Source of the DNA: Nitrospira sp.
GTDB lineage: Bacteria; Nitrospirota; Nitrospiria; Nitrospirales; Nitrospiraceae
Assembly (NCBI GenBank): GCA_020853775.1
Contig: JADYYH010000012.1
Span: 1 to 64,000 of the forward strand
Reading direction: 5' to 3'
DNA: 64,000 nt
This document shows positions 3,304 through 25,509 of the stretch, one piece after another. Position 1 is the stretch's first letter. Every line of letters starts with the position of its first letter. Below the pieces are notes generated by a model, which worked only from the letters and a program-made list of their open reading frames with translations, did not search any database and was not told where the DNA came from. A program made the translations under genes and the position numbers.

Positions 3304-5028
3304 CTACGAATTCCCTTCTTCCCTCTTCTCCGCCACATCGAACTGCAGCCCGCTTGACCCTTCCCCTTTATCCGGTCCTTTGCGTCGGCCGATCCACAGA
3401 TGCGTTGAGCCGTCGATCCAGCGCGCATATTGATAGGTCCGGGTGACGCGCGCGCCTTCGCGCGGGACTTCTTCGTCGAACAGCAACAGTTCACGGTTCG
3501 GTTCGAGTAATCGTCCCTTGGAACGTTGCGCACCCTGGATGCCGCCCTCGCCGAATGCCGGCAGTGCCCCACGCTTGAGTCGCAGGGTGGTGCCGTCTTT
3601 CACCGGCAGCAACGGAATCCAGTAGTCCGGCACCGTCGTCCCGAGCCTGTAGATCAATGGATCGCCTTCACCGCCGGCGGAGGGTGGGGGAGGCTGTGCG
3701 GCCAACGTCTCTTGATACGCTTCATGACGATCCAACGGCCGGCCGGCGGCGCTTTCAACGACACGCTCAACGGCCCAGGCGACGTTAGCCATTTCATCCC
3801 GCAACAACGACAGGTCTTCCACCGGTTGGCTTTCCAGCAGCGGGCCCAGCACCGGCGGTAGGAAGAACAACTTCTGAGTGTCGTTTGTCAGGCTGAACAT
3901 GCGCCAGGGCGACGCGGGGCCATCCACTTCGCTGGCGTGCGGGACAAGGAAGCGTTCGCCAAAGGTGTTGGTGACGACAAGCGCGCGGATCTGGGAGAGG
4001 GTGCCCACCGCCAGTTCGAGTGGCAGCAGGAACCAGTCGTTACTGTATTCCAGGGCGAACTTTACGAGCAGCAGGCGAGCCAGGTCCTGCGGCGCCGCTT
4101 GGACACTCGCAAAGTTCACGGCGCCGTCTTCGAATTCCCATAAGCGCGCAGAAGGCATGCCGCGAAACGAGACCGGGGTTGGGAGGAACGCGTCGCTGAT
4201 GGATGTCGGACTTTCGATGGCACCCAGGCCGTTTCCCGAACCCGTCGTGAACGAAAACCAGTCTAGCCGTCCATCGAGATATTCCGGCGCGGTCAGCACC
4301 ACTTCGCTCGACGTCGTCTTGGCGGAGATACTCAGCGCATATTCCATCCGTTCAGGAATCCAGGCAGAAGAGGCGGCGCCCTGTTGAAAGAGACTATCCA
4401 CCCAGGCCAGCCAGGTCTTGAGGATGCCGATGATCTTTGCTTGATCCCCTGCGGCAATCTGATCCAACGGCGCGCCGCGAAATACATCATTTAATGTGTT
4501 GCCGGCCTGCAGCACTCTGAGGCGTGCGGCAAACTGCAGTCCATCGATGGTGCGGCCAGCCAGCACGCGGAGGAACGACAGGCTCGCGGCGTCGATCTGC
4601 TTGGCCTGTTCAGGAGTGGGAGCGGCTAGTACGTAGGCGCTTGCCAACCATTGCGCGCGGGAGGGACCGAGACGAGCCGTCTCCAGCAAGCGGAGGAGAT
4701 GCCGCCCGGATTCGGCCGCCAGTCGCCAATTGGGGCGCGAGTCGTCTGTCACCGGTTCCGCTTCCACCAACGTTTCCAATGCCAGGCTGTCGGCTGCGTA
4801 AGGTCTTGCCGGATGTGGCCCAGAGCGTGGCCCCGGTTGATAGCGGGTGATGGCAGCGGTGTCCACAATCACCTGCGCGGCAGCCGGTGATCCAGCATCG
4901 GCTCCGTTGAATTCGCCGAATTGCCATTGGCGTCCCAGCATCCAGAGCGGATCGTGGATGCGCGCCTGTAAACCATCCTGCAAGTCGGGGTTCTGGGTGC
5001 TGAGGTCGAGTCTGATTCGGGAGGCCAT
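3304..5028 (-). CDS. Unknown 574-aa protein, last gene of the eight-gene module
   Basis: The protein begins MASRIRLDL and has a conserved-looking N-terminal block around residues 14-45, including HDPLWMLGRQWQFGEFNGAD, which I recall from uncharacterised bacterial proteins but cannot tie to a function. The rest is a soluble mixed alpha/beta protein; near the C-terminus are FDEEVPREGARVTRTYQYARW and WIGRRKGPDKGEG. There is no signal peptide or membrane helix. The ATG at 5028 lies two bases after the stop of the 1772-aa gene, so translation is probably coupled; the longer frame to 5355 lies inside that gene and is rejected. The tight spacing implies the product works with its neighbours. Confidence 0.8.
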   Translation of the reverse strand: MASRIRLDLSTQNPDLQDGLQARIHDPLWMLGRQWQFGEFNGADAGSPAAAQVIVDTAAITRYQPGPRSGPHPARPYAADSLALETLVEAEPVTDDSRPNWRLAAESGRHLLRLLETARLGPSRAQWLASAYVLAAPTPEQAKQIDAASLSFLRVLAGRTIDGLQFAARLRVLQAGNTLNDVFRGAPLDQIAAGDQAKIIGILKTWLAWVDSLFQQGAASSAWIPERMEYALSISAKTTSSEVVLTAPEYLDGRLDWFSFTTGSGNGLGAIESPTSISDAFLPTPVSFRGMPSARLWEFEDGAVNFASVQAAPQDLARLLLVKFALEYSNDWFLLPLELAVGTLSQIRALVVTNTFGERFLVPHASEVDGPASPWRMFSLTNDTQKLFFLPPVLGPLLESQPVEDLSLLRDEMANVAWAVERVVESAAGRPLDRHEAYQETLAAQPPPPSAGGEGDPLIYRLGTTVPDYWIPLLPVKDGTTLRLKRGALPAFGEGGIQGAQRSKGRLLEPNRELLLFDEEVPREGARVTRTYQYARWIDGSTHLWIGRRKGPDKGEGSSGLQFDVAEKREEGNS

Positions 5029-5030
5029 AC

Positions 5031-8000
5031 CTATGCTCCTATTGCCGGATCGATCACGCTGGTGAAATCGAGGGTGCCGCCGGTAAACAGCAGCGCCGGG
5101 GCCGATGGGTCCTGCTCGCCGGAACCGACCGGCTGCAACGCGCACTTGCCGGCACGATCCCACGTGGCCATCCCATCGAATAGCGTAAAGGCCATGCCGC
5201 CCACGATCCGTCCTTCGAGTCCCACGGTTGCGGCCGGCACTTCGAGACGCACCCATCGGCCAGGCGGAGGCAATGGGCCCATGTACTGCCGGCTGACGGT
5301 GTTGTCGGTGCCCCACGGAATGAGGTTTTCGCCCCAATAGGCGCGATGCTCCCAAGTGCCGTCATGCCATTGCAACATGACTTGTCGGGGCATACGGGCG
5401 GGATCGAGGTAGATGTGTGCAAACAGGCGATCCCCCACATCGACGAACAGCGGACTCTTGGCGCCCTGAAAAAAATGTTGATGCATGCCGGCGGCGACAA
5501 CCGATTGATGGGCGCGCCTGCCGGAGAGTGGTTCCGGTTTCATGCGGATCCAGGTCCAGGTCTCGCCGTCGCCCAGAGGAGCGGCTCCTTCCGGCAGTTG
5601 GTCCTCGACCCAAATCACTTCGTCCCCGCTGTCTGGCGCGACGGCGCGCAGTCTAGCCAAGTCCATCGTCTGCTGCAGGACGGCCTCCAGGCTGTTCAGG
5701 TCCCAGGTCGTTCGCCGGTCCGCAGGCACGGCAAGCAGCAGCGCCTGCGGGGGTGCGCTGTTCGGTTGATCGTAGTGAAAGCTGACGCCGGTCGTCTCGC
5801 GGGGGCTCGGGACCGTCTCCACCCATTCGTCGATCAAGAGGCCGGCGAAGGGCTGATCGAAGCGGAGCGGTTGCGCCGACGACATTTGCGCCACGAGTGA
5901 CACACGCCCGCGTGGAAATGGCTGGTCCGGCTTGGGCGGTAGGGCCACCCAGCGATCCTGGGCCTGAAAGGGGAGTTGTCCGACGTGGAAACGGAGGGCG
6001 GCGCTGCCCACCGTTTCGCCATACAGCATCGCTTCGTTCAAGCGTGTGGCGCCAGGCCTGACGTAGGCGGCGCGCTGAAACCACGTGACGGCGGCCATGG
6101 GGTCTTGCCCTTGGAGCGAGAGACTCGCGGCGAACGTCTCATTCAGCTGCATAGCGTTGGTTGCGGTCATGCGAGGCAACGCCAGGAAATCCTGGCCGAA
6201 GATGATGCGGAATCGAGCCAGGTCGTGATCGCGCCGTTCTTCCGGTGTGGCATTCGCACGAACAAAGCCTTGGTCCGATTCGGTCACCCGGTTCAAGCGA
6301 CGTTGTGCCTCAAGCAGGACGGACCGCGCCTGGGTCAGCAGCATCGAGCGTTCTTCCGATCCTGTCCCGCCGATGTCGGTCGGCACCGCGCTCGGTATGC
6401 CGAAGCTCGCCAAGGCGAACAGGGTGCGGCGAACGTCGTCGAGATTGGCGGTCATATCGTCCGACGGCGGCGCAGGGAGGAGGCCATTCAGGAGTCGATG
6501 CACATCAGTCAGGGCTTGCACCGCCCGCGTGACGCGGCCGGCAAACTCCTCATGGTCCAGGCCTGAGTCGGCTGGTGATTCGGGCAACGACAGATCGCGG
6601 CCGTCGAGAGACCGGGCATTGCTAAGCAATCGGCGCACCGTGGTAGCGACCTCGCACCATTCCGTGACGCTCACAATATCCGCTCCCCAACCATTGTCGC
6701 GGTCGAATTGCAGTCGAATGATCGCATGCGCTGGGACCGTCGCGGGACGGGTCTGCTGCAGCACAAACCGCCAGCGTTGTTCGAGTGCGGCTTGCTGTGC
6801 TCTGGTGTTGCCTTCCGCGAGGTAGATGGCATCCAGCGGCGCCAGTCCAAGCGATGTCAACGAACTCTCAACGGTCTGATAGATCTGTGCGCTCTGCTCA
6901 TCGACGTAATCGGCCTTACAACGGACCTGGGCCGGATTGGGCAGGAGCGTTGCTACCCAGGCATTGAGTATCGGTTCGGCCTGGGCGCGTGCCGATGGTG
7001 CATTCGTCGGCCAGCTTGCCGGTGCTGTGCTGTCGGTTGCGGGGAAGAGGGTGCAGAGGCGATGCGTCAACCCGATACCGCTCCTCGGCGTGCGGATCAC
7101 CTCCAGCTCTGGCGGCGGCACTTCACCCGCAGCGATGGCATCCAATGTCGCGCCGGAACGAAGAGGATTGCCTTGCACGAGTTGGTAGACGCTTTCGGCC
7201 ACCACGCTGTCACCCACGGAGTCGACCAGATCGTCGAGTGTTTTGAGCACGTCCACGAGCGCCGTGAAATCCGCGCTGCCGGGAGGTGGAAATCCCAAGG
7301 TCGCGTTGCCGAACGGCACGGTGGTCACATCCCAGGAGGTCTGCGGCGCCTGGCGTTGCTGGCTTGCCGTCCACCGTCGATGCAGGGCCAGCCCATCGAC
7401 CACGGCGGCAGCCGGCAGCGATTTCAGCGCGTCATTCCATTGCGCGGCGAGGCGGGTCGTAAGGGTCGCTCGCGCGGCGATGAGATCGGCCATGGCCTTG
7501 CCGCGTTGCCCCCCTTCTTTGGCGAGAGCCTGGCGGTCGAGCTCGGCGGCGAGCGTGTCTTGTCGTGTTGCCATCTGCTGTGCAGCGGGAATCGAATCCG
7601 GATCAGCGGCATTGAGCAGTTTTGCCTGAGCCCGTTCCGCGAGCAGACGTGAGCCGTCCTGAGCGCTGACGACCTGCTGTGCGGCGGCTGCCTGGGCCAC
7701 GGCGGTGGCCTGCGCCTGAGTCAGCTGTTCCACGCGATTGTCCCAGTCATCGAGGTCCCGCGCTTCCAACAATTGGATGGCATAACGGCGCGCGGCAGGT
7801 TGGGTCACCTTGCCTTCCGGTTTCGCCGCCTGTTGTTGGGCCAGCACCTGAGCCGCCTGCGTCACCTGTGCTTGCGCGGCCTGCGCCTGTTGGGTCAGCG
7901 TGGCGATGGTGCCCAGTGCGGCGCGATAGGTTTGCGAGCGTCGCTCGCGTTCGGCCTGCAATCCCCGGGCGTCTTCGGCCCGGCGCAGGGCCTGGTCACG

Positions 8001-10349
8001 TTGCATCGTCAACAGCGTCACTTCTTGCGCCAGACGTTCGGTGCGCGTGATGGTGTCCCGGATGTCGGCGAAGCGGTCGGTGCCGGTGAAGCTGGTGAGT
8101 GCGCGGAAGCGTTGGATGTAGCGGTCCAGGCTGCGATCGTGGAGATGGCGTTCGAATCGATAGCCGAGCAGGGCGGTCAAGGACTGACCTTGGCGTACGC
8201 CGTCGAGCAGCCACTTGGCGCGATGGACCCGTTCAGACGAGAGGTCGACGGCAAAGGGGGAGGTGCCCGATGCGCGATTCGATTCCTGCGACAGGTAGCC
8301 GCTCCGCAGCACGGCGGCGGCTGCCGCATGTCCTAGCGACGGGGCATGGACGAAGCCCTTGTTCTGCGCCGAGCGCGAGATCGGCGCGGTAACGCCGGCG
8401 GGTGGTGCCGGGACCGGTTGGACCGGGGCCGCACGCCGGACCTGTTCGACCCAGCCATAGGCGCCGAGCCTGATGCCGGCGGGTGCTGCCTGTCGCATCG
8501 CGGCCAGCCGTCGAGTTGCCAGGGATGTGCCCCAGGCATCGAGGCGATAGGTGACGAGATCCATCGCCTCCGCGAGCAACTGTTGGCGAATCGGTTCGGG
8601 TAGGGTGCTCAATTCATCCATGGCCGGCTCGTGCGGGGTCGAAAGAGCGCGAGTCAGCAGGAGCGTGCGGAAAGCGTCAGTGAGCAGCCGTTGCGGCACC
8701 GGCGGTTGTCGGGTGGAGACGTCGGGAAATTCGCGCAACGTGTAGCGGCAGGTGTTGGCCTCCTGCGCCAGGAGCACGACGGGATTGGATTCCAGCGTGG
8801 TCTGGAGAGCCTGTGGGACTTGGCGACGGCGTGTCAGCCGTTGGGCTCGCCACCAAGCAGCCAGCACGTTATCCGGATCCTGATCCGTCGCCGAAACCCA
8901 CCGGTCGAGTGCCGCTACCGGCAGCAGGCCGTAGGGCTGTTTGTCGACTCGCAGGACCGGCAGTGGTCCGCGGGCCCTGACATACTTCGAGAAATGGTCG
9001 CGTAGCACGTCGGCTCCCGTTGCGCCGACCAGTTGTCGCAGCAGGGGACTGTCAGAGATTGCGAGCAGGGCTGCCTGCATAACTGAGGATCGGTGTTGTT
9101 CCGCTCCGTCGGCTCCGCGGACATGGGCAAAGACAGATGCCGGCAGACCTAGCGCCTGTACCAAGATTTCTCCATCGGAGCCGGAGCGGATGAGCGAGGC
9201 GCCCAGCTCGACGCCCATGCTGCCGGCCGCGTCGCGCCCGGTCGAGCGATAGCCCGCCGGTGAGTCTGCTGTATTATTCGTCGGCGCCTGTTGCTCGACG
9301 AGGGCGAGGTTGCCGGTGTAATGGTGGGCATCGAACAATTCGACCAATCGGCCGGCCGTGGTCGGGGCATCCCATGACGCCTTCAGTCCCAACACCACGA
9401 TGCGATCGAATCCTGCCTGTGCGTCCTCTTCGGTGATGGGGATACGTAAGCTCATGCCGATGGATTCAGCGCGGTCGAAATCCATGATCCACGTCATGCC
9501 GTCATCGACGGCCGGCAACCCATTGCTGCCGAGCGGGCCCGTGCTGCGTGGGTCAGGTCCGACCGCCACGGTCTCCGGGATTGCCTTGCCCCAGGCGGTG
9601 ACACGCGCGGCATCGCTACGATAGCCGACGGCGACCCAGCGATCCGGCAGGACCTGGGTGTGGGGCGCGCGGGTCCAACTGTCGTTGCGACGTGAGACCG
9701 TTCGGCCTTGGGCGGGATCGAGGACGCGAGCGATCCAGGCGGCGCGGGTCGTGCCGAATTGTTCGGTGAGTCGTTGCCAGTCCTGCCTGATGTGCTCCTG
9801 CCGGTCCGTGCCTGTGGGCGCAGCGGCGACATGGGCCCAAAACTCCCTGCCCCGGCGTTCTTCTTCTTCCGTGAGAGCCGGTTCGTGGCTGTCGAGATGG
9901 ATGTCGTCGGGATAGACGCGGAGCAGTAGATCGGTGCCTGGCCCTGTCCGTCTCGCGGCAAACCTGGTTTCCACGCGGACGGGAAACAGCAGCAGCGGAT
10001 GGGTCGTGGTAACCGTGCCGCTGAGGCGATCCGTGCCCAGCAGTCGAGCCGTTGCGGCATCGCGGGCGGCTCGATGTTCGTCGACCTGCGCCGACAGCGC
10101 GGCGACTTCGGCTTTCTTCCGAGTCACCGTCTCCTGGGTGGCCGTGATTTGGGCGTTGACCCGAGCCAATTCGGCCTGGTGGAGCGCCCGTTGTCTGATG
10201 AGCAGGGCGGCTCGCCGCTGGGCAGCTTGAGCCCGCGCGACGGCCCGGTCGTGCGCCGCCTGTAATTGGCGCAGTTGAGTCGCCCAGGCTCGGAGGAGTG
10301 CCGGGGGCACCCGTTCGGGAATATCTGGTCCTTCAGCGATCGGTCTCAC
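5031..10349 (-). CDS. Unknown giant protein, 1772 aa, with coiled-coil segments
   Basis: This is the largest gene of the module. It starts with GTG at 10349 behind an AGGAAAGGA ribosome-binding site. Residues about 20-100 form an Ala/Gln/Arg-rich coiled coil; next comes a region with HPLLLFPVRVETRF and LLLRVYPDDIHLDSHEP (about 115-160), blocks I recall in other uncharacterised proteins. A middle stretch (about residues 780-970) is again Ala/Gln-rich and heptad-like, preceded by LTALLGYRFERHLHDRSLD. The C-terminal part looks beta-rich (WEHRAYWGENLIPWG). No enzyme motif, signal peptide or membrane span is visible. It is probably a large scaffold or structural subunit; that is inference from size and coiled coils only. 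Confidence 0.85.
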   Translation of the reverse strand: MRPIAEGPDIPERVPPALLRAWATQLRQLQAAHDRAVARAQAAQRRAALLIRQRALHQAELARVNAQITATQETVTRKKAEVAALSAQVDEHRAARDAATARLLGTDRLSGTVTTTHPLLLFPVRVETRFAARRTGPGTDLLLRVYPDDIHLDSHEPALTEEEERRGREFWAHVAAAPTGTDRQEHIRQDWQRLTEQFGTTRAAWIARVLDPAQGRTVSRRNDSWTRAPHTQVLPDRWVAVGYRSDAARVTAWGKAIPETVAVGPDPRSTGPLGSNGLPAVDDGMTWIMDFDRAESIGMSLRIPITEEDAQAGFDRIVVLGLKASWDAPTTAGRLVELFDAHHYTGNLALVEQQAPTNNTADSPAGYRSTGRDAAGSMGVELGASLIRSGSDGEILVQALGLPASVFAHVRGADGAEQHRSSVMQAALLAISDSPLLRQLVGATGADVLRDHFSKYVRARGPLPVLRVDKQPYGLLPVAALDRWVSATDQDPDNVLAAWWRAQRLTRRRQVPQALQTTLESNPVVLLAQEANTCRYTLREFPDVSTRQPPVPQRLLTDAFRTLLLTRALSTPHEPAMDELSTLPEPIRQQLLAEAMDLVTYRLDAWGTSLATRRLAAMRQAAPAGIRLGAYGWVEQVRRAAPVQPVPAPPAGVTAPISRSAQNKGFVHAPSLGHAAAAAVLRSGYLSQESNRASGTSPFAVDLSSERVHRAKWLLDGVRQGQSLTALLGYRFERHLHDRSLDRYIQRFRALTSFTGTDRFADIRDTITRTERLAQEVTLLTMQRDQALRRAEDARGLQAERERRSQTYRAALGTIATLTQQAQAAQAQVTQAAQVLAQQQAAKPEGKVTQPAARRYAIQLLEARDLDDWDNRVEQLTQAQATAVAQAAAAQQVVSAQDGSRLLAERAQAKLLNAADPDSIPAAQQMATRQDTLAAELDRQALAKEGGQRGKAMADLIAARATLTTRLAAQWNDALKSLPAAAVVDGLALHRRWTASQQRQAPQTSWDVTTVPFGNATLGFPPPGSADFTALVDVLKTLDDLVDSVGDSVVAESVYQLVQGNPLRSGATLDAIAAGEVPPPELEVIRTPRSGIGLTHRLCTLFPATDSTAPASWPTNAPSARAQAEPILNAWVATLLPNPAQVRCKADYVDEQSAQIYQTVESSLTSLGLAPLDAIYLAEGNTRAQQAALEQRWRFVLQQTRPATVPAHAIIRLQFDRDNGWGADIVSVTEWCEVATTVRRLLSNARSLDGRDLSLPESPADSGLDHEEFAGRVTRAVQALTDVHRLLNGLLPAPPSDDMTANLDDVRRTLFALASFGIPSAVPTDIGGTGSEERSMLLTQARSVLLEAQRRLNRVTESDQGFVRANATPEERRDHDLARFRIIFGQDFLALPRMTATNAMQLNETFAASLSLQGQDPMAAVTWFQRAAYVRPGATRLNEAMLYGETVGSAALRFHVGQLPFQAQDRWVALPPKPDQPFPRGRVSLVAQMSSAQPLRFDQPFAGLLIDEWVETVPSPRETTGVSFHYDQPNSAPPQALLLAVPADRRTTWDLNSLEAVLQQTMDLARLRAVAPDSGDEVIWVEDQLPEGAAPLGDGETWTWIRMKPEPLSGRRAHQSVVAAGMHQHFFQGAKSPLFVDVGDRLFAHIYLDPARMPRQVMLQWHDGTWEHRAYWGENLIPWGTDNTVSRQYMGPLPPPGRWVRLEVPAATVGLEGRIVGGMAFTLFDGMATWDRAGKCALQPVGSGEQDPSAPALLFTGGTLDFTSVIDPAIGA

Positions 10350-10376
10350 GCTGCTGATCCTTTCCTTAACTGAAAC

Positions 10377-11186
10377 CTATGGCCCATCCCGTAAATGCGT
10401 GCTGACCTCGGCTTCGGCCGCCGTCAGCGCCTGCTGGGCTGCCGCCTGTTGCGCCTCCGCCTCAGGGATTTGTCTGGCGAGGTCGGCGAGCAGCGTCGTC
10501 AGTTCGTTACGCCTGGTGATCAAGCTTGCGAGGAGTGTCTCGGCGTCCTCCAGTTCGAACCGCGTGACTAGATGGGATTCTTCCAACGTTGTTGTGCGGG
10601 CCGAGAGTTCCGCGGCGATCTGCTGCAGGGCTTCCCTCGCCAGCGGGTCGCGTGTGATCTCTGCATTCATGCGCTCGATCTCGGCGAGCTTCGTGTGGAG
10701 TTCCTGCCGGCGGGGTTGCAGGGTGGCGATCGTGGCCTGGGTGGCTTGCACCGCGGCAGTCGCCGCCGCAATCTGGCGATCTACCGCCTGCACTTGCGCC
10801 TGGGCCTGCGCCACGCCCTGCTGCGCCTCGGTGACCTTCGCATGGGCTGCGGTTGCGGCGGTCTGGGCCTGGGTAAGTCTCTTTCGCAGTGCGGCGAGGC
10901 GTGCTCTCCAGGTGGCGGGGGGGATGCCTTGCGGTGGTTCGGAGGCATCGAGCAGGTCCTGTTGCGCCTCTGCGACTTGTGCGTCAGCCGCGGCGGCGGC
11001 GGCCTGTAACGGTGCGATGCGCGCCTGAGCCTGCGTGACACCGCTTTGCGCGTTGGTGCGCTGCGTCTGCGCCGCGGTCACCGCCTGTTGCTGGCTGGTG
11101 AGTTGGGTCGTCAACGTGGCCTGTTGCGCGGCCAAGGCTTGCAGGGCCGTTTGGAGTCTGGCGGTTTCTTGTTCCAAATAGGGCAT
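10377..11186 (-). CDS. Coiled-coil protein, 269 aa
   Basis: Almost the whole protein is an Ala/Gln/Thr-rich heptad pattern (for example LQTALQALAAQQATLTTQLT at about residues 11-30), broken once near residues 82-95 by a proline-containing loop (SEPPQGIPPATW). It ends in a second coiled-coil arm around residues 180-260. This predicts a long helical hairpin or rod, with no enzymatic domain. The ATG at 11186 has GGAAAGAG upstream; the longer frame to 11399 lies inside the 870-aa gene and is rejected. It sits 20 bases downstream of the 870-aa gene and 27 bases upstream of the 1772-aa gene, whose own N-terminus is also coiled coil, so the two products may pair. Confidence 0.85.
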   Translation of the reverse strand: MPYLEQETARLQTALQALAAQQATLTTQLTSQQQAVTAAQTQRTNAQSGVTQAQARIAPLQAAAAAADAQVAEAQQDLLDASEPPQGIPPATWRARLAALRKRLTQAQTAATAAHAKVTEAQQGVAQAQAQVQAVDRQIAAATAAVQATQATIATLQPRRQELHTKLAEIERMNAEITRDPLAREALQQIAAELSARTTTLEESHLVTRFELEDAETLLASLITRRNELTTLLADLARQIPEAEAQQAAAQQALTAAEAEVSTHLRDGP

Positions 11187-16800: not shown

Positions 16801-17115
16801 CGCGCGACTAAGCTCCGCGAATGTGGTGCCGGCATGAACAAGAGATTCACTGAGGTTCTTGAGCGCCGAGACCAGCGCATGGTCGTCGCCACTCTCACTC
16901 GCATCGATCACGGACGCCACTACGGCAGGTAGTTGGGAACAGGCTGCAGCTGCAGACTGCAGTCCCCTGGTAACGCCGCCGGCACTCAATGGTAATCGGA
17001 GGCCGAGCTGCTCCATTGTCAGCTCCGCCTGGTTACCGTGCAGCCGGGTGGCAAACGGCGACAACGCCTCACCGACAATTCTGGCCAAGGTGTCGAATGC
17101 GGAGGGGGTACTCAC
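13840..17115 (-). CDS. DUF6603-type giant protein, copy 2 (1091 aa)
   Basis: The C-terminal half (from about residue 505) matches what I recognise as the DUF6603 family, rich in amphipathic beta strands, with landmarks such as GGGFLGFDPQRAEYSGMLQL, GFTLTGIGGLVALYRTVRTD and AIGGFHPRFAPPPGLPALKR. The N-terminal half is different: helical to about residue 165, then beta-rich. There is no signal peptide. The start is a GTG at 17115 overlapping the protease stop codon as GTGA, showing translational coupling. The 3' half (13866-15603) is nearly identical at DNA level to the 3' half of the first DUF6603-type gene. Function of the family is unknown to me. Confidence 0.85.
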   Translation of the reverse strand: MSTPSAFDTLARIVGEALSPFATRLHGNQAELTMEQLGLRLPLSAGGVTRGLQSAAAACSQLPAVVASVIDASESGDDHALVSALKNLSESLVHAGTTFAELSRALDEVIQNTGSLTPGQKANLHGVVEKLPHRLLHLALISYIEERQPAVKSALELAGLFDDTPIDTDPTDPSLSVHHRKEVRFDRIPQLFSNPIQHLKTLYGFGNPGFDGLELFRRIKQMVDRPDAEAFIIEAPGLPAILEAWRFRLEVVPGATPALRVRLRVPAQKDLDISEPIAGPWLGTVISSARFEGGIELLLHPTQGLKIDPPASAASIDMAMGLKAETPDNSPMILFGRVGGSRIELQRFALRLPLKLMAASRTPSPFVEVGAAFELKQGKVVIDGAQADGFLAQILPTGGATIPFDLEGGWSVRQGLYFKGETGLDATIPVNINLSGVAKIDSLQITLEGREGPAQQDSAIHAVIATTMQVTIGPVSVMVERFGLQAAFTFPRSGGNLGVADLSLGFRPPTGLGLAIEAAGVTGGGFLGFDPQRAEYSGMLQLELAETIAIKALGLLTTKLPDGSKGYSLVILLTAEGFAPIPVGLGFTLTGIGGLVALYRTVRTDVLRDGLKTGTLNSILFPTDPLRNVPQIFSDLRRIFPPTAGRHVFGPMVQLRWGSPTLLTLDLALLVELPAPIRVIVLGRLQVLLPDQSHPLVQIRMDALGVLDVSAETVALDATLYDSKILQFTLTGDMALRAGWGRQPQFVLAIGGFHPRFAPPPGLPALKRLALQLADGDSLQLRCQAYLAVTSNTVQFGARVDLHAAGGGFSFDGMLGFDAILQLAPLAFEVEVGAALALRYHGRLLMGISFKGRLAGPTPWQVEGKAKISLLFFSVSVSFSRTFGSKVPPPLPAAVDVIGLIAAALADRRNWSGTVPRSSSPVVTIRETPPPASGLRVHPWAELTLRERIAPLNRRLTKVGTAPLVGGPTTVTVTVTDRAGAAPWRTTPVQEPFALAQYEDLREDEQLSQPAFVPLAGGLTVAADDVAVDDEAGLTAPIAYETVLIDPTRPPERPKAGYVLSAAVLTRVARFGAAGQAPARKRRQMRTAVTM
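13866..15603 (-). repeat. Long direct repeat, copy A (within DUF6603-type gene 2)
   Basis: This 1738-bp segment aligns with 19975-21712 at a constant offset of 6109 bases without any net insertion or deletion. A sampled 60-base stretch differs at about five positions, so identity is roughly nine in ten or better by eye. Similarity stops abruptly near 15603. It marks a recent duplication or ongoing gene conversion. Confidence 0.9.
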
Positions 17116-19649
17116 GGCTTTCCTCCGAGACGCACCGCCTCCGCATCGAGTCCATCAAGATCCGTCCCGGGCCAACGGTGGACGAATTCACGGTAATACT
17201 CGATGTCTCCCCTCAGATGCTCGCCCCCGAACCGGTGGAGTATGGAGAGAAAGCGGCCAATCAATGTCGTGATAGTGAGGCCTTTGACTGTCGCCGGGAG
17301 TAATGCCACCGGAGTCTGATGGTTGTGCAACAGATGGCGCACCAACAGCGGACCGCCATATCTGCGCCAGACCGCACCGACGCGAGCATTCTGATTGATG
17401 AGGCCTAGGACTTCGTCGACATGGCGACTGATCAGGGCGGCGGCCAACATCAGCCCAGGTCTGGGCCCGAAGCGGCGCTGCCAGTCGCCGAGGCGGGAGA
17501 AGATGGTATGTGGGGTGTAGCCCAGCCCAGCTTCGTCCATTGAGATCGTGGGCCGGCCCTGTCCCCCACCACCGGAGTTTGGCGCTGGCGGTGTCTCGGC
17601 CAGAGCGGCTTGCGCGTTCACCTTACCCGCTCCCCAGATGTTCCCCCAACGAATTCCTGTCGACGGGTCAATGACGGGCGGCGTTTCCACAGCGGGGATA
17701 CCGTCGACTCGAGCCGAATGCTGCAAGTAGAGGCGTACTTGTTCGAAGGTCAGGTGGGGATTTGTTTCGAACATCAGCGCGACGAGCCCAGTCACGTGTG
17801 GCGCCGCCATACTGGTGCCGGTCTTGTCTACCACTTTCTGGTCGCAACACGATGACGGCTTATCCTTGTCATTGCGGCTGCGCGCCGCGACAACGTCGGA
17901 ACCAACGGCGGCAACCGTTGGTTTGACTTCGCCTGATGCTGTGCCAAGGGGATACGTAACGGGTCCGCGTGACGAACTGCTCGTGATCGTATTGCTTGAG
18001 TAGTTGGCAACGGTGATCGCATTACGCGAAGCGCCAGGAGACGATATGGTGTTGTCACGGCGCCGCGCGGGCGGATCGCCTTTCTCCGAGGGCAAGCGGA
18101 AGAACGGATAGCCTTCATCATGATTGGACTGGAACCGGATATCCCAGTTTGCCGTGACGGAGGAGGTGTTGGTCAGTAGCAGTTGCCAGATGCCGGGTCG
18201 AATATTGAGCAAAGGCATACACTTCCAGACGACAGTGCCATCGGTTATGGTATCGCCTAACGTTAGAGGCCAAATTGGTTCCGTAGCCGCAGACGTTCCC
18301 GCAGTCACGCATTCATAGAGGTGACCTCCTGGCGTTTGCCGTGGCACGACAGACGCCTGTGGGGCGTAGGCTGTTGAGGCCTGCCACTGCGGCGGAGTTG
18401 CGGAGATGGTGATATCGATATTTTTCTGGTTGCCGTGCCGAGAATCTCCACTGACAGGTGAAGTGATCGAGATCTGCATTCTGCCGATGGTGAACGGGGA
18501 TCCGGCACCACCCGGCGCAAACGGGCCGGTGGTATTGGTACTTGGAAATGCGGCACTGACTGGCGCGGTGAGCTGCACAGTGATCGAGGCGGCACCATCG
18601 TACCAGATGCTGATCGGGTCGGGACTAGTCGAATAGTCCGGCATGCGAAACGGCACCGTTGCGGAGCTTCCTGGTTGCCCAGCCGGCTGTAGGGTGCCAC
18701 TCTCATGGGTGTCCCCATAACCCTCATTGCCGGCGGCAGCGACGACTGCGAGCCCGGATGGGATGGGGTTGCCGCTTGGTCGCAGGATCCGGTCCACCGA
18801 GACATCGTTGTAGTCTCGGCCATCATGTGCCCCAAGGTCCCAACCCCAGCTGCAGTTAATGACGACCGGCTTGTTGGAGCCGTTAGGATGTTTATGACGC
18901 TCGCCTGCCTGCGCGCACCAGCGCAGCGCGTCGCGCGTATTGCTTGAGCTATTTGCGGGCAGTGAGATGGCCTTGACGATGACGAGATCAGCGAGCGGTG
19001 CCACGCCGACGTAGTGACCGGGAAACGAGCATCGATCGTCCTGGTTGCCGTTACCAGCCGCAATCCCGGCGACATGGGTGCCGTGGCCGTTGTCGTCGAT
19101 GCTCGCGAACGGTGGTTTGGCCTTAATTCCGGCATCGATGTCTTTGCTGTTATACACGCGGCCGATCTGTGCAAACCCGGTCGGCGGTGCGCTGCCCCCG
19201 GTCGTCGCCGACTGATCCCACAGCTCGAGGATCCGAGTCCCTGAGGGCGTCCGAAACGACTCATGAAAAATGTCTATACCCGTGTCAATCACCGCAACAA
19301 TGACTCCGGCTCCTTTACCCGAGAAGCCGGGCGGGACTTTCCATGGGACACGCATCTCGGTAATTGTTTTGTCGAGTAGCGGACGCGAATTGGGCTGCAT
19401 CGTCACACGCACGACGCCTGGAACCGCCAGCAACCGCTCCAGGTTGCGAAACTCAATCTGGCCGCTGACCTCACCATCGGAATTGTAACCCGTATTCAGC
19501 CCGGCACGTTGTAGTTCAGCAACATCGCCGGTGTATTCGACACTCACAGTCGCCTGACGGTCCCGGAGTTCCGGCGACTCTGTCGCGCGCGCGTGCCAGA
19601 CTTCGAACGCGTGCCGTAATGCGGATGCAAGTTTGTCTAGATCTGACAT
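17112..19649 (-). CDS. Subtilisin-like S8 serine protease with prodomain and inserted carbohydrate-binding-like domain
   Basis: The 845-residue product has the full S8 triad: D122 (VIVAVIDTGID), H189 (DDNGHGTHVAG) and S613 (GTSMAAPHV), with oxyanion N308 (AAAGNEG). Residues about 30-95 resemble an I9-like prodomain. Between His and Ser lies a long insert; residues about 422-478 (WQASTAYAPQASVVP and ITDGTVVWKC) resemble small carbohydrate-binding or tail-fibre beads. After about residue 690 comes a helical C-terminal tail unlike subtilases. No Sec signal is present. The ATG at 19649 has an AAGAAGGACA ribosome-binding site; the frame to 19703 is less likely. It probably processes itself and possibly neighbouring products; substrate unknown. 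Confidence 0.92.
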   Translation of the reverse strand: MSDLDKLASALRHAFEVWHARATESPELRDRQATVSVEYTGDVAELQRAGLNTGYNSDGEVSGQIEFRNLERLLAVPGVVRVTMQPNSRPLLDKTITEMRVPWKVPPGFSGKGAGVIVAVIDTGIDIFHESFRTPSGTRILELWDQSATTGGSAPPTGFAQIGRVYNSKDIDAGIKAKPPFASIDDNGHGTHVAGIAAGNGNQDDRCSFPGHYVGVAPLADLVIVKAISLPANSSSNTRDALRWCAQAGERHKHPNGSNKPVVINCSWGWDLGAHDGRDYNDVSVDRILRPSGNPIPSGLAVVAAAGNEGYGDTHESGTLQPAGQPGSSATVPFRMPDYSTSPDPISIWYDGAASITVQLTAPVSAAFPSTNTTGPFAPGGAGSPFTIGRMQISITSPVSGDSRHGNQKNIDITISATPPQWQASTAYAPQASVVPRQTPGGHLYECVTAGTSAATEPIWPLTLGDTITDGTVVWKCMPLLNIRPGIWQLLLTNTSSVTANWDIRFQSNHDEGYPFFRLPSEKGDPPARRRDNTISSPGASRNAITVANYSSNTITSSSSRGPVTYPLGTASGEVKPTVAAVGSDVVAARSRNDKDKPSSCCDQKVVDKTGTSMAAPHVTGLVALMFETNPHLTFEQVRLYLQHSARVDGIPAVETPPVIDPSTGIRWGNIWGAGKVNAQAALAETPPAPNSGGGGQGRPTISMDEAGLGYTPHTIFSRLGDWQRRFGPRPGLMLAAALISRHVDEVLGLINQNARVGAVWRRYGGPLLVRHLLHNHQTPVALLPATVKGLTITTLIGRFLSILHRFGGEHLRGDIEYYREFVHRWPGTDLDGLDAEAVRLGGKP

Positions 19650-19948: not shown

Positions 19949-22900
19949 TTATGCGACGGCGGTTGTAGGCCCTCGCCGCCGTTTACGCGCCGGGGCTTGG
20001 CCGGCGGCGCCGAAGCGGGCGACCCGGGCCAACACTGCGGCGGAGAGGACATAGCCCAGCTTCGGCCGCTCCGGGGGCCGCGTCGGATCAATCACCACGG
20101 TCTCATAGGCAATCGGCGCGGCGAGGCCTGCCGCGTCATCCACCGCCAGATCGTCGGCGGCGACCGTGAGCCCGCCGGCAAGCGGCACAAACGCCGGCTG
20201 TGACAACTGCTCATCCTCCCGCAGGTCTTCATACTGGGCCAATGCGAAGGGCTCGTGCACCGGCGTCGTGCGCCAGGGTGCCGCCCCGGCGCGATCCGTC
20301 ACCGTGACCGTCACCGTCGTGGGCCCGCCGATAATCGGCGCCGTGCCCAGCTTCGTGAGCGGTCTGTTCAACGGCGCGATCCGCTCCCGCAGCGTCAGCT
20401 CTGCCCAGGGATGGACGCGCAGTCCGCTGGCCGGCGGCGGCGTCTCCCGGATCGTGACGACGGGGGCACTGCTTCGTGGCACGGTCCCGCTCCAATTGCG
20501 CCGGTCGGCCAGAGCGGCCGCCACCAGTCCCACCACATCCACCGCCGCCGGCAGTGGTGGCGCAGTCTTGCTGCCGAACGTCCGTGAGAAGGACACCGAC
20601 ACCGAGAAGAACAGCAGCGAGATCTTGGCCTTGCCCTCCACGTGCCAGGGCGTGGGGCCGGCTAATCGCCCCTTAAACGAGATGCCCATCAGTAGGCGGC
20701 CGTGATACCGCAGGGCCAGGGCCGCCCCCACGTCCACTTCAAAGGCCAAGGGGGTGAGCTGAATGAGCGCATCGAAGCCGAGCATGCCGTCGAAGCTGAA
20801 CCCGCCGCCCGCCGCATGCAGATCCACCCGCGCGCCGAACTGCACTGTGTTGGAGGTGACCGCCAGATAGGCCTGGCAGCGCAACTGGAGCGAGTCGCCG
20901 TCGGCCAGCTGCAGGGCCAGCCGCTTCAAGGCGGGCAGGCCGGGCGGGGGTGCAAAACGTGGGTGGAACCCGCCGATGGCCAGCACGAATTGCGGTTGCC
21001 GACCCCAGCCGGCGCGCAAGGCCATGTCACCCGTCAGCGTGAATTGCAGGATCTTCGAATCATAGAGCGTCGCATCCAAGGCGACGGTCTCGGCGCTCAC
21101 GTCCAGTACGCCCAAGGCATCCATCCGGATCTGGATGAGCGGATGGCTCTGGTTCGGCAACAGGACTTGCAGACGACCCAGCACGATCACCCGGATGGGA
21201 CTGGGTAGTTCGACGAGCAGAGCGAGATCGAGTGTGAGCAAGGTCGGCGTGCCCCAGCGCAGTTGGACCATCGGACCAAAGACATGGCGGCCAGCGGCGG
21301 GGGGGAACACGCGGCGCAGGTCACTGAAGATCTGTGGGGCGTTCCGCAGGGGATCAGGCGGGAACAGCACAGAGTTGAGCGTGCCCGTTTTGAGCCCCTC
21401 GCGCAGCACGTCGGTGCGCACGGTGCGGTGCAGGGCCACGAGGCCGCCGATGCCGGTGAGGGTGAAGCCGAGCCCGATGGGAATGGGCGCGAAGCCCTCG
21501 GCGGTCAAGAGAATCACCAGCGAGTAGCCCTTGCTCCCGTCGGGCAGTCTGGTGGTGAGCAGGCCCAGCGCCTTGATGGCCACCGTCTCGGCCAGCTCCA
21601 GCTGCAGCATGCCGCTGTATTCGGCCCGCTGCGGATCGAAGCCCAGGAAGCCGCCGCCGGTCACGCCTGCCGTTGCGATCGCCAGGCCCAATCCTGAAGG
21701 AGGCTTGAAGCGTGGCGAAAGTCCGAAGAGGCCGAGGTTTCCTTCGTGAAAGGACAGGCCGACCGTGACGCCGATCCGTTCGACGGTGGCGGTTACAGGG
21801 CCAAGCGCCAAGCGGCCGCTCAGGCTGGTTTCCGTATCGAGTCCTTCTTCTCGCACGTCGATGCCGACATGGGCTGCGTCCAACCGCAAGGGGCCGATGG
21901 CCTGTTGCAACGAGAGCTGCACATGTAACCCGCCGCTGCCGGAGAACGAGAGTCCCGTCTTGCTGCTCCAACGGAGTGTGAGGTCGAACGGGGCCTGGAC
22001 AGACTCACGCCCGACCGTGCCCTGAATAAAGCCGTCGGCATTCGCGAGTGAGAGATCGAACCGGAGCCCCAAGAGTGCAAGCTCCACAAATGCTTCCCTG
22101 CTGGTGGCTGAGGAGGCATCGAGTCCGCCTGCGACCGCGAACTGCTGATACCGCAGGGCTGACCCACCGGGCAGGCGCACCAGAGATTTGAGCTCGCCGG
22201 TCGGTTGACCATGCCGTAGTCCCAACGTGAGGCGGCCGTTGATCGCATCACCGAGTCCTGCCCCCTTGCGAAGTGTGAGGTCCCGATTGGGTTGCAGAAT
22301 CACCGCGAGCCGCTTGAGCACCTCCACGTTGCCGGACCATTCGATGCGTGTGTCTTCCAATCGGTGAAACGGCACCGCTCCTTCCGCCCGGCCTTGGATC
22401 AGAGGCGCGAGGCCGAGGCCCGCATCGTTCGCGCCTGCCGACGTGGGGGCTGCGCCGAAGAGGGAGAGTCCAAGCCGTACGCCGAAGGCCGTGCCGCGCT
22501 CTTCATATAAAAAGGTGATCAACTGCGACGCCGGATCGACACCCGCTCCGGTACGTCCCACCCAGGCTTCTTCCGCCTGAGGACTCAACGGCTGGATGCG
22601 ACTACGTATTCCGAGCGTCTGGAAGAGCTGGCTGACCCGGTTGAGAAAGAGAGTGGACTGGAAGTCCGGTGTATCCCAGCCATAGGCCTCGGTGAACAGT
22701 CGGTTTGGTTCCGTGACCAGCACTTTGAAGAGGTGATAGTGCACTGTGGCGCGCACGTGCTCCACCTGAAACGTCGCCGGATCGGCGGCGTAGTAGGGAT
22801 AGTCGATGATGTTTACCAGGTGGAGGACGGCATAAGCGAGCGGCGAAGCCTGCGCCAGGTAATTGGCCACGAGGAAGTCGAACAGCCGCCTGGGAAGTTC

Positions 22901-23266
22901 CTTGTGAATCTGCGTGCGCTCTACGTAGTCGCCAAAAGATGCCAGTCTGGCGGGCAGGGTGTGAGCCAGATCGTGAATCTGAGCGACGAGCGCTTCGATC
23001 GCCAGGGCGAGGTCGGCGATGCGGCCCGCCATGGTCACCTCGTCGTTCCATTCGGCATCGGAGGCGCCGATGACCGCGTCGAGTTTCGTGAGGAAATCAC
23101 CGAGATCGAGGGCGGCCAGACCGATGTCGTCGAGACCGGGCGGCAGATCCCAACCCAGCAACTTCAGAAACGCGCGCGCCTCCTCGATATCGCCGTGGAC
23201 GACGTCGAGGTACGACAGGAGCCGCCCGATCCCGGCGGTGGCGTTCTGGACTAGATGATCGGCCAT
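19949..23266 (-). CDS. DUF6603-type giant protein, copy 1 (1105 aa)
   Basis: Residues from about 519 to the end are almost the same as in the second DUF6603-type protein, including GGGFLGFDPQRAEYSGMLQL and AIGGFHPRFAPPPGLPALKR. The N-terminal half differs: residues 1-200 are largely helical (for example AFLKLLGWDLPPGLDDIGLA), followed by beta-rich repeats of the kind ALLGLRFDLSLANADGF. No signal peptide or membrane helix is seen. The ATG at 23266 overlaps the end of the phospholipase gene by 16 bases. Its long beta-strand content suggests an elongated or barrel-like shape, but that is inference. Biological role unknown. Confidence 0.85.
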   Translation of the reverse strand: MADHLVQNATAGIGRLLSYLDVVHGDIEEARAFLKLLGWDLPPGLDDIGLAALDLGDFLTKLDAVIGASDAEWNDEVTMAGRIADLALAIEALVAQIHDLAHTLPARLASFGDYVERTQIHKELPRRLFDFLVANYLAQASPLAYAVLHLVNIIDYPYYAADPATFQVEHVRATVHYHLFKVLVTEPNRLFTEAYGWDTPDFQSTLFLNRVSQLFQTLGIRSRIQPLSPQAEEAWVGRTGAGVDPASQLITFLYEERGTAFGVRLGLSLFGAAPTSAGANDAGLGLAPLIQGRAEGAVPFHRLEDTRIEWSGNVEVLKRLAVILQPNRDLTLRKGAGLGDAINGRLTLGLRHGQPTGELKSLVRLPGGSALRYQQFAVAGGLDASSATSREAFVELALLGLRFDLSLANADGFIQGTVGRESVQAPFDLTLRWSSKTGLSFSGSGGLHVQLSLQQAIGPLRLDAAHVGIDVREEGLDTETSLSGRLALGPVTATVERIGVTVGLSFHEGNLGLFGLSPRFKPPSGLGLAIATAGVTGGGFLGFDPQRAEYSGMLQLELAETVAIKALGLLTTRLPDGSKGYSLVILLTAEGFAPIPIGLGFTLTGIGGLVALHRTVRTDVLREGLKTGTLNSVLFPPDPLRNAPQIFSDLRRVFPPAAGRHVFGPMVQLRWGTPTLLTLDLALLVELPSPIRVIVLGRLQVLLPNQSHPLIQIRMDALGVLDVSAETVALDATLYDSKILQFTLTGDMALRAGWGRQPQFVLAIGGFHPRFAPPPGLPALKRLALQLADGDSLQLRCQAYLAVTSNTVQFGARVDLHAAGGGFSFDGMLGFDALIQLTPLAFEVDVGAALALRYHGRLLMGISFKGRLAGPTPWHVEGKAKISLLFFSVSVSFSRTFGSKTAPPLPAAVDVVGLVAAALADRRNWSGTVPRSSAPVVTIRETPPPASGLRVHPWAELTLRERIAPLNRPLTKLGTAPIIGGPTTVTVTVTDRAGAAPWRTTPVHEPFALAQYEDLREDEQLSQPAFVPLAGGLTVAADDLAVDDAAGLAAPIAYETVVIDPTRPPERPKLGYVLSAAVLARVARFGAAGQAPARKRRRGPTTAVA
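19975..21712 (-). repeat. Long direct repeat, copy B (within DUF6603-type gene 1)
   Basis: This is the partner of 13866-15603 at a constant 6109-base offset. The break near 21712 is abrupt: the next bases encode a different N-terminal half. Both repeat copies end close to the stop codon of their gene. Confidence 0.9.
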
Positions 23267-25509
23267 GGGAGCAGGTTTTTCTTATCGTCGACCTTGCAGG
23301 TGCTGAAGTCGAATTTCTGCGCCTTGCTGCGCAAAGTTGAGGTACGGATTTTGAGCGCAGCCAGATATTCCTTCGGGTCGGTCTCCGGCTTCCAAGGCAA
23401 CAGGTGCGGCGCATGGTCGGCCGGCGGCGCGAGTTCGTTCTTGATCGCATCCACATGGTGTGTGGCGGCATGTTCCCATTCGGCGACCCAGGTCATGGAA
23501 GTCGGGTCGGCGGGCAAGGTCTTGAGCTGATCCGGCAGCGAGGTCAGCCCCAGGTGCTCCTGCCACAATTCATGGCGCAGGGCCTTGACCACGCCGTTTT
23601 CCGGCAGTCCGGCGATGCCGCTGTACATCACCAGGTTGAGTTCCACGCTGCGCGACGGCTGACGTGAGCGGCTTGGGACGGCGTGCCGGGCCGTGCGGGT
23701 ATACATATCCCTGACGAGTTGAGGAATGTCCGCCACGTCGCCGAGCGTCTCCCTGATGGTCTCCAGCGTTTCCTTGAAGTCGAAAATCAGTTTGTAGGCG
23801 ACGAAGAGCAGGATGAGCAACGTCTTGAGATCGAAGAGTATCTGTTTGAAGACGAAGAAAAAGAGATACCAGAACAACTCCCAGAGAAACTTGCCGGGAT
23901 CGTTCGTGAGCTTCGCTTTGTCGATGAGCCGGTCGAGGAGGGCGCCGCCCACGATCAGGCCGATCTCATGGTAGTTGAGGGAGGTACCGTCGAGGTTCGC
24001 GCTCCCCACCGTGGCCCACACGTCGTCGATGATGGCGACCTTGCTGTGGACATACACCGGCATCACGTCGTAGCGCCGAGGATTCCCCGCGCCGCCGCTG
24101 CCTGCTTTCTCCGATCGGCTCCAGAGAGTGTAGGCGCCGAAATGATGTCCGCCTATCTTGGCGGCGCTACGGAGCTGGTTGACGTTGTCGATCTGGCGGT
24201 CCGGATAGCCCGGTAGGTCGGGGCGCAGGTTCAGGACCAGAATGATCTGCAACCGGGGTTTGGTCGTATCTTTCATCCTCGCGATGAGCGCATCCACGAT
24301 CTCGGGAGAGGTGAAGTACTGGTTCTCGATGTAGATGTACCGCTGAGCATTGGCGATGGCGCGCTCGTAGGCTTCGAGGATGCCGGTTTCGCCGTAGGGC
24401 AGGTCTTCGCCGCTGGGATTGACGCGCTTGATCGAACCGCCAGGCAGCGTGCGCAGGACCTGCACCGAAGCCACGTCGCCGTCGGGCGTGACCGGCAGGT
24501 CGGGAAAGGTCTTTGGCGGAGGGATGAGCATCGGCTTGCCGGTGGCATTCCAGATGCTCGCGAAGGTCTTCTCGATGTGTGACACCGCCGGGCCCTTGAG
24601 ATCGGTGTTGACGTCGTGCATGAGCGAGCCCTTGTGGCGCGCGTCGCGGATGGCGTGGCGTGAATCGCTGAAGTAGTACTGTTTGAGCGGCGACCCCATG
24701 AGGATGGCGTGGTCCCCATCCACCACGATGGCCTTGGCATGCAGCAGGGCGAATCCCTTGTTATAGGCGTTGGTGCGTACGCCCGGCGTCTGTTTGAAAA
24801 ACTCCGCCACTTCCGTCACGGTGTCTTCCGCAGACAGCGGCAGGTTCGTAACCAGGACATTCACCGGCTTCCCGCTCTTATTCTTGAGCACCTCTTCCAG
24901 CGTGGTCTCCGCCGCCTGCTTGCATCCGGTGGAGGGAGGATTCAACGGGTCGAAGCTGCTTTTGAATTTGCTGAGGAAGCCATTGTCGACATCGAAAAAC
25001 AGCGTCATCAGGTTGATGGATTCGGTGGCCCCCTCGGCGGCATCGGTCACCTCGGGGAACATCTTGGCCCCGTCGATCAGGTGCGTGATGCGGTTGTGGT
25101 GGTAGAGCGCGACGGGCTCTCCGACTGCGGGGTTCAAGGTCGTATGGGTGACGAGCCAGCCCTCGATGTTGTTACGGTGGATGGTGATGGTGCCGACCTC
25201 GTGGTTCGAGTCGGTGACATCTTTTGCTTCCTTGGTTTCGTGCAGGAGGCGCGTGCCGAAGAGCGCCGGGTCCGCGTGGATGGGGCCGAATATCTGGGCG
25301 ACGAGGTCGGGATTCCGATCGACCTTCCAGGTGCGGTAGGCGTCCGGCGAGTATGAAATGAGAAAGGTGCCGTCGCCTTCTGTCTTGCCGACGCCCAGCA
25401 CGTCGTCTTCGCTGAAAAAAGGATCGAAGTCGAGCGCGCGAACGGTCAAGCCGGCGATGCCGGCCCCCCGCTCATCGATGACGCGTCCATGGATGCTGAT
25501 GTTGGCCAT
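23251..25509 (-). CDS. Phospholipase D-like protein with N-terminal transthyretin-like domain and hydrophobic segment
   Basis: This 752-residue first gene of the module has two HKD motifs: H257-K259-D264 (LLHAKAIVVDGDHAILMGSP) and H488-K490-D495 (YVHSKVAIIDDVWATVGSAN), the paired arrangement of phospholipase D enzymes that hydrolyse or transfer phosphodiester bonds. Residues 1-60 (GRVIDERGAGIAGLTVRALD, then TEGDGTFLISY) look like a carboxypeptidase-regulatory/transthyretin-like beta sandwich. Residues 541-577 are very hydrophobic and aromatic (FLWELFWYLFFFVFKQILF), probably a membrane hairpin or re-entrant helix. No signal peptide is present. The C-terminal 170 residues are unique. The substrate could be lipid or nucleic acid; membrane lipid is favoured by the hydrophobic segment. 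Confidence 0.92.
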   Translation of the reverse strand: MANISIHGRVIDERGAGIAGLTVRALDFDPFFSEDDVLGVGKTEGDGTFLISYSPDAYRTWKVDRNPDLVAQIFGPIHADPALFGTRLLHETKEAKDVTDSNHEVGTITIHRNNIEGWLVTHTTLNPAVGEPVALYHHNRITHLIDGAKMFPEVTDAAEGATESINLMTLFFDVDNGFLSKFKSSFDPLNPPSTGCKQAAETTLEEVLKNKSGKPVNVLVTNLPLSAEDTVTEVAEFFKQTPGVRTNAYNKGFALLHAKAIVVDGDHAILMGSPLKQYYFSDSRHAIRDARHKGSLMHDVNTDLKGPAVSHIEKTFASIWNATGKPMLIPPPKTFPDLPVTPDGDVASVQVLRTLPGGSIKRVNPSGEDLPYGETGILEAYERAIANAQRYIYIENQYFTSPEIVDALIARMKDTTKPRLQIILVLNLRPDLPGYPDRQIDNVNQLRSAAKIGGHHFGAYTLWSRSEKAGSGGAGNPRRYDVMPVYVHSKVAIIDDVWATVGSANLDGTSLNYHEIGLIVGGALLDRLIDKAKLTNDPGKFLWELFWYLFFFVFKQILFDLKTLLILLFVAYKLIFDFKETLETIRETLGDVADIPQLVRDMYTRTARHAVPSRSRQPSRSVELNLVMYSGIAGLPENGVVKALRHELWQEHLGLTSLPDQLKTLPADPTSMTWVAEWEHAATHHVDAIKNELAPPADHAPHLLPWKPETDPKEYLAALKIRTSTLRSKAQKFDFSTCKVDDKKNLLPWPII

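Follow-up and report, generated by a model that had tools for sequence, protein, structure and literature searches.

The window, a 64,000-nucleotide stretch of a Nitrospira genome (contig C12 of a 4.25-Mb draft), contains a 22-kb module of eight leftward genes, which encode an HKD phospholipase D-family hydrolase (PLD), a subtilisin-like protease (S8), two giant proteins of the family DUF6603 (PF20248; DUF6603-a and DUF6603-b) and four further proteins, G5, G6, G7 and G8 (Table 1). With moderate confidence, we read this locus as a modular carrier of hydrolases that is independent of the Sec pathway. Comparison of the sequences showed that the core of the module was conserved, that its hydrolases were exchanged, and that the N-terminus of DUF6603 was specific to the hydrolase while its C-terminus was homogenised within each locus.

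The original prediction, made from the DNA alone, took the eight genes for one system and named a failure to recur together elsewhere as its refutation. They did recur together, and that reading survived. A G5 scan of 84,980 species genomes gave at least 523 confirmed relatives, of which the best 80 were kept and yielded 77 loci. These best 77 loci spanned Halobacteria and 12 bacterial phyla (Pseudomonadota, Actinomycetota, Nitrospirota, Bacteroidota, Chloroflexota, Myxococcota, Acidobacteriota, Cyanobacteriota, Planctomycetota, Bacillota, Verrucomicrobiota, and Gemmatimonadota). In nearly all loci with enough sequence, profiles placed DUF6603, G5, G7, and G8 next to each other on one strand and in one order, hydrolase-DUF6603-G5-(G6)-G7-G8, on chromosomes as well as plasmids, and the median gaps within the core were 18, 18, and 2 bases. 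The nearest named relatives of G5 in the genome scan were Nitrospira, and close homologues of all eight genes were found in order in other Nitrospira genomes; the core occurred in distant phyla. This ordered recurrence indicated that the module did not arise by chance.

The core genes were also inherited together. Among the 270 genomes of the class, 46 had a G5 match, which was marginal in two, and G8 accompanied G5 in 43 of the 44 genomes with a solid G5 match, the lone exception being on a 4.6-kb contig. Thirteen plasmids of haloarchaea, Streptomyces, Nocardia, Rhizobium, Paraburkholderia, and Gemmatirosa carried G5, and G8 was found on all 13. The whole set was missing from some near-complete genomes of the same genus, which indicated that it is accessory and is gained and lost as a unit. 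G7 and G8 were fused in seven loci, in Streptomyces, Mesorhizobium, and a Pyrinomonadaceae bacterium (E < 1e-160). The four core families were mutually unrelated, with only a weak signal between G7 and G8. The phylum labels on the G5 tree changed 22 times against a minimum of 12, which fits horizontal movement and does not prove it. A "Gemmatimonadetes" contig (L075) from a metagenome-assembled genome was 88% identical to the window, and some such phylum assignments may be contamination; unlike this contig, the Gemmatirosa plasmid belongs to a named strain. Taken together, the eight-gene module is strongly supported as one recurring system.

The gene immediately upstream of DUF6603 was taken from 73 positions, the hydrolase partner thus being assigned by position. 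Four main classes occupied this place: PhoD-like phosphoesterases (22), S8 proteases (13), M64 proteins (8), and HKD phospholipases D (8). Trypsin-like, M14 carboxypeptidase, DUF4056, WD40, and lipase_3 proteins occurred as singletons, and in a Micromonospora locus an alpha/beta hydrolase domain was fused with DUF6603 in a single frame of 2729 aa. Profile comparison found no domain, docking or other, common to the four classes, and NCBIfam gave no further name to ten upstream proteins at this position. No immunity gene was found beside the cargo; cargo and adaptor genes overlap by 4–16 bases in the window, and similarly in most loci, so that no space is left for one. For the type VI secretion system (T6SS) of Salmonella, one effector of M64 type and one candidate effector with DUF4056 have been reported (PMC11669294), which suggested that the cargo position fits an effector role. 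The earlier statement that the module delivers or regulates lipid and protein hydrolysis was correct in its enzyme classes; its delivery part was interpretation.

The DUF6603 proteins were split at the domain border, at about residue 430 of the window copy. With close relatives excluded, the N-terminal part found its best match in a protein paired with the same hydrolase class 49 times out of 50, and the C-terminal part 17 times out of 50. In the non-redundant set the corresponding counts were 29 and 14 of 30, and label shuffles for these 30 cases gave a mean of 9.6 and a maximum of 19. The N-terminal tree required three changes of hydrolase class, the fewest that four classes allow, and the C-terminal tree 13. 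In these comparisons the C-terminal domain tracked the host locus. The C-termini of a Kibdelosporangium M64 locus and an Amycolatopsis S8 locus, for example, matched each other at ~1200 bits, and the N-terminus of each matched a Nitrospira protein of its own hydrolase class. The Spearman correlations of hydrolase identity with N- and C-terminal identity were 0.90 and 0.58 for S8, 0.93 and 0.78 for M64, 0.94 and 0.67 for PLD, and 0.49 and 0.35 for PhoD. Between the window and a related locus (L038), the S8 proteases were 33% identical, the N-termini of their DUF6603 partners 32%, and the C-termini 92%.

Loci with two DUF6603 copies displayed the same division. In 13 of them the N-termini were 22–29% identical and the C-termini 91–100%; in one cut locus with tandem copies the N-termini were 42% identical over 33 positions. 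DUF6603-a and DUF6603-b of the window were 93% identical over residues 500–1080, with an abrupt switch near residue 500. Tandem copies that are alike at one end and apart at the other suggested that the dock is homogenised in each locus and the adaptors are kept distinct. The N-termini of all four classes were homologous along their length (hhalign 99.7–100%), which indicated one adaptor family that diverged to fit unrelated enzymes. DUF6603 is thus very probably a cargo-specific adaptor on a common dock, and the eight genes would comprise two cargo-adaptor pairs and one chassis. The original prediction had listed the two DUF6603 giants and the hydrolases and had missed both the exchange of cargo and the adaptor role.

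The predicted model of DUF6603-b (mean pLDDT 82, pTM 0.60) comprised a helical bundle (residues 1–225) followed by an antiparallel beta meander (residues 240–885), in which most strands had a hydrophobic and a polar face. The nearest solved folds were very large beta sheets or barrels, namely ApoB-100 (Z 15.4) and porins (Z ~14), with root mean square deviations (rmsd) of 9–12 Å. Overall, the resemblance to porins and ApoB had Z scores of 12–15 but rmsd values of 9–14 Å. Since the rmsd was at least 9 Å and the TM-scores were below 0.3, the matches to porins, ushers, and ApoB were taken as no more than a common arrangement. The nature of the nearest folds makes it plausible that the predicted meander is a lipid-binding or shell-like sheet. 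As for an outer-membrane beta barrel, the large amphipathic meander was seen, the proteins had no signal-like segment, and the family also occurs in haloarchaea. Haloarchaea have no outer membrane of the kind that houses beta barrels. By sequence, DUF6603 matched solved structures weakly, through its N-terminal helices and mostly to designed or coiled helical proteins, and these matches were set aside.

G5 was also predicted with confidence (pLDDT 83.6, pTM 0.75). Its best solved-fold match, to a CopC-like structure over 88 residues, had a Z score of 4.6; this establishes no relationship, nor is it proof that the fold is new. The stretch 504–542 was poorly predicted and corresponds to the site of inserts in relatives. 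The sequence search of solved structures gave nothing credible for G5 or G7, and a weak match of G8 to 3kdq (E 3e-4 and 3e-3) lay in a poorly conserved region and was discarded.

Further domains were inserted into the chassis proteins of the relatives. The G5 loop carried Laminin_G_3 (L060), FG-GAP repeats (L129 and L036), or transmembrane-like helices (seven loci), and G8 carried PA14 together with a sub-threshold F5/8C match (L101), or lamin-tail domains in haloarchaea. A coil insertion of ~205 aa in G7 was present in 29 of the 29 scored loci with G6 and missing in 42 of the 43 without it, and this correspondence suggests that G6 and the G7 coil may form a coiled-coil pair. None of 385 core open reading frames (ORFs) contained a signal-like hydrophobic segment near the N-terminus. 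The large assembly first proposed for the locus received indirect support from the G7-G8 and hydrolase-DUF6603 fusions, from co-inheritance and from the G6/G7-coil pairing, and the products of the module probably form one assembly.

In the mechanism that we propose, G5, G7, and G8, with the coiled-coil G6 in the window, would build a conserved chassis, onto which the C-terminal amphipathic meander of DUF6603 would dock. Each DUF6603 N-terminus, with its helical bundle and beta region, would bind the one hydrolase encoded just upstream, and the window would therefore load two cargoes, the phospholipase D and the subtilisin-like protease. The exchangeable loop modules of G5 and G8 (lectin-like, FG-GAP, PA14/F5-8C, lamin-tail-type, and transmembrane helices) may anchor or aim the complex. 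We infer the docking, the single assembled particle, and an action on the membranes or proteins of other cells or on external material. Whether such a carrier acts outward is evenly balanced. More tentatively, it might represent an undescribed class of non-contractile, Sec-independent carriers spread over many phyla and archaea, which would load interchangeable hydrolases through DUF6603 and bring them to cells or surfaces selected by interchangeable binding domains.

Among known systems, T6SS adaptors (Tap/DUF4123 and EagR/DUF1795) are similar in that a cargo-specific adaptor lies beside an exchangeable effector, toxic or hydrolytic, and loads it onto a conserved machine, and M64 and DUF4056 proteins are found in both settings. 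However, the module of the window contained no DUF4123, DUF1795, VgrG, Hcp, or PAAR by Pfam, and a Pfam scan of all eight proteins with E up to 1 gave no match to DUF4123 or DUF1795. Moreover, a single DUF6603 protein of the module would contain both adaptor and dock, and the chassis consists of other proteins. Extracellular contractile injection systems (eCIS) are widespread in the same kinds of hosts as the module; both lack Sec signals, and in both the enzyme cargo and the binding domains are exchangeable. In contrast to them, the module had no sheath, tube, or spike family in Pfam, and the core occurred in two genomes (G069 and G076) that had no sheath-family match. DUF6603-a, G5, G7, and G8 matched no PHROGs family, and no phage or tail family was found in Pfam. 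The Tc (ABC) toxins have very large non-Sec carrier proteins, exchangeable enzyme cargo, and surface-binding inserts, and the module resembles them in all three. It differs in that each cargo is encoded by a gene of its own, has a dedicated adaptor, and is a hydrolase, not a cytoskeletal toxin; at the sequence level, no match to TcA/TcB/TcC, SpvB, or RHS families was found in the module with Pfam and NCBIfam. As far as gene arrangement tells, the module appears to work like polymorphic effector-adaptor systems, with an exchangeable effector, a conserved carrier, and a matching adaptor, and it has none of the sequence features that define them. Both giants match the full DUF6603 domain; this family has no described function, and none of the papers searched named it. 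The combination had been thought to match no described system, and no description of DUF6603/PF20248 or of the module was found in the searched literature, a search that did not extend to preprints and subscription papers.

The main rival explanation is that the complex is a cell-associated scaffold of the producer itself, which would keep hydrolases at its membrane or surface to turn over lipids or proteins, scavenge nutrients, or meet envelope stress, and would deliver nothing to other cells. It holds this rank because immunity genes are absent and transmembrane-like helices are present, in the PLD cargo and, in seven loci, in the loop of G5. The lack of signal peptides, the ordinary degradative classes of the enzymes, and the OmpA-type lipoproteins upstream in six Nitrospira-type loci, mostly together with MscL and a DUF481-like protein, point the same way. 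However, the lectin-like, FG-GAP, PA14, and F5/8C inserts are typical of external recognition, and cargo exchange across phyla and a patchy distribution within the genus would be unusual for a housekeeping scaffold; we consider this explanation unlikely. A role in anti-phage or other defence, with the hydrolases as effectors triggered inside the cell, is improbable. Large proteins without signal peptides, patchy distribution, and effector exchange would suit it, and in PADLOC, PLD locally matched DrmC, and the protease matched the subtilase and IetS models. These matches, however, reflect generic catalytic motifs. Among the core proteins only the coiled-coil G6 matched any model, the core genes of DISARM or another PADLOC system were not found, the core contained no sensor NTPase or nuclease, and lectin-like inserts do not fit such a role.

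Sheath-family genes are common in the genus and also present in the genome of the window, and the T6SS effectors or candidates listed for Salmonella include M64 and DUF4056 proteins (PMC11669294). On these grounds, the locus could be an orphan cluster that supplies effectors to a contractile injection system (eCIS or T6SS) whose genes lie in another part of the genome. However, G069 and G076, two single-contig genomes that are 99% complete, had the core and no PF04984 match, which indicated that a contractile system is not required. Besides, no core protein matched PHROGs, and a four-gene chassis would be needless for the cargo of a contractile system, so this explanation is very improbable and was disfavoured. 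The idea that unrelated enzymes and structural proteins merely happen to lie together here, as the unrelated enzyme families assigned by Pfam might imply, was refuted by recurrence: the order is kept in 12 phyla and archaea, and co-inheritance, fusions, and cargo-specific N-termini also contradict it.

Some points weigh against our own interpretation as a carrier. It was drawn from genes and models, from which assembly, secretion, and targets were inferred. The counted loci are not fully independent, their hydrolase partners were assigned by position, and in the PhoD loci the correlation between hydrolase and N-terminus was weaker (0.49). DUF6603 might itself be inserted into the membrane by another route, and a complex bound to the producer's own membrane would likewise account for the transmembrane helices in some G5 and PLD proteins.

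Four giant families travel as a unit through bacteria and archaea with no assigned function, and three of them have no Pfam family. The proposed logic of cargo, adaptor, and dock would give DUF6603 a testable role, name the cargo of each locus, and place a new assembly within reach of direct testing. If it is true that the carrier acts outward, contractile systems and Tc complexes would be joined by a new type of device for delivering proteins.

Table 1. Genes and internal features of the module, in window coordinates.
Feature	Position	Strand	Size	Basis and remarks
PLD, HKD phospholipase D-family hydrolase (putative cargo 1)	23251-25509	-	752 aa	Pfam, motifs
DUF6603-a, putative adaptor paired with PLD	19949-23266	-	1105 aa	Pfam; N-terminus groups with PLD-paired copies
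DUF6603 domain of DUF6603-a (putative common dock)	20213-21910	-		Pfam
S8, subtilisin-like protease (putative cargo 2)	17112-19649	-	845 aa from ATG	Pfam, motifs
DUF6603-b, putative adaptor paired with S8 protease	13840-17115	-	1091 aa	Pfam, N-terminal comparison, predicted model (pLDDT 82)
N-terminal part of DUF6603-b (residues 1-430), putative hydrolase-specific adaptor	15826-17115	-		Helical bundle 1-225 and start of beta region
DUF6603 domain of DUF6603-b (putative common dock, predicted amphipathic beta meander)	14104-15810	-		Profile and model
G5, putative core chassis	11207-13819	-	870 aa	No Pfam family; confident model
G5 variable loop (residues 505-575)	12095-12307	-		Relatives carry transmembrane helices, Laminin_G_3 or FG-GAP here
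G6, coiled-coil protein, lineage-restricted	10377-11186	-	269 aa	
G7, putative core chassis	5031-10349	-	1772 aa	No family
G7 coil insertion (residues 757-965)	7455-8081	-	~205 aa	Accompanies G6
G8, putative core chassis	3304-5028	-	574 aa	No family

The ORF check on the window confirmed the eight leftward genes at these coordinates, with the sizes and spacing first described: two overlaps (16 and 4 bases), four gaps (20, 20, 27, and 2 bases), and one spacer of 299 bases. The catalytic motifs described as intact were verified by residue. In PLD both HKD motifs (HxKxxxxD) were present at residues 257–264 and 488–495, PLDc and PLDc_2 exceeded the Pfam cut-off, and a single internal transmembrane-like stretch was located at residues 557–575. 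The S8 protein matched Peptidase_S8 (PF00082) at 143.8 bits and retained Asp122, His189, and Ser613 in the motifs DTGI, HGTHVAG, and GTSMAAP; an alternative GTG start at 19703 would give 863 aa. About 57 residues of this protein (421–477) matched the phage "head decoration" family phrog_20658 (E 6e-10). DUF6603 was matched over nearly the whole profile in both giants (440 and 426 bits, the cut-off being 27; E ~1e-130). Neither Pfam nor NCBIfam gave a credible match for G5, G7, or G8, and scans against both identified G6 as a generic coiled coil. As the original prediction had it, none of the eight proteins had a Sec signal peptide, no signal-like hydrophobic segment being found at their N-termini.

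The same genome (L149, contig C87:6000-25999; 307-13488) and four relatives (L145–L148) also carried a divergent form of the module, type II. It consisted of DUF6603' (hhalign 99.7%), G5' (95%), an unrelated-looking G7', and a kelch-bearing G8'. In L149 a protein with a phage tail-collar domain (12388-13488) lay upstream of DUF6603'; lipase_3 lay upstream, near DUF6603', in L146 and L148, and phospholipase D in L147. A scan of viral contigs for the module gave 35 pattern matches and zero relatives, so a viral origin was rejected, and the lone match in the phage collection was a faecal scaffold marked UNVERIFIED.

Orphan C-terminal pieces of G8, 84–88% identical, lay just downstream of intact operons in two genomes (G045:C23:30381-30749 and G068:C51:57093-57260) and looked like debris of cassette exchange. 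In a complete Nitrospira chromosome (CP092081; G055, loci L047/L076), the region upstream of G5 yielded no DUF6603 gene and the G5 match began at residue 53; this copy has apparently decayed. OmpA-type lipoproteins were recognised by eye upstream of the hydrolase in L043, L063, L064, L071, L077, and L081; most of these six Nitrospira-type loci also had, by eye, an MscL gene and a DUF481-like outer membrane protein, which the window lacked.

About 2 kb upstream of the module, an IS200-like (Y1/REP-type) transposase was located at 27638-28309 of the window. Past it, the window contained chiefly housekeeping genes (metG, holB, tmk, glmS, gatA/B, eno, and recO). At 57627-60491, a PEP mutase/nucleotidyltransferase fusion adjoined a TPP enzyme (phosphonopyruvate decarboxylase-like), and a polysaccharide export protein was found at 61774; together these genes probably belong to a pathway for a phosphonate-decorated glycan.

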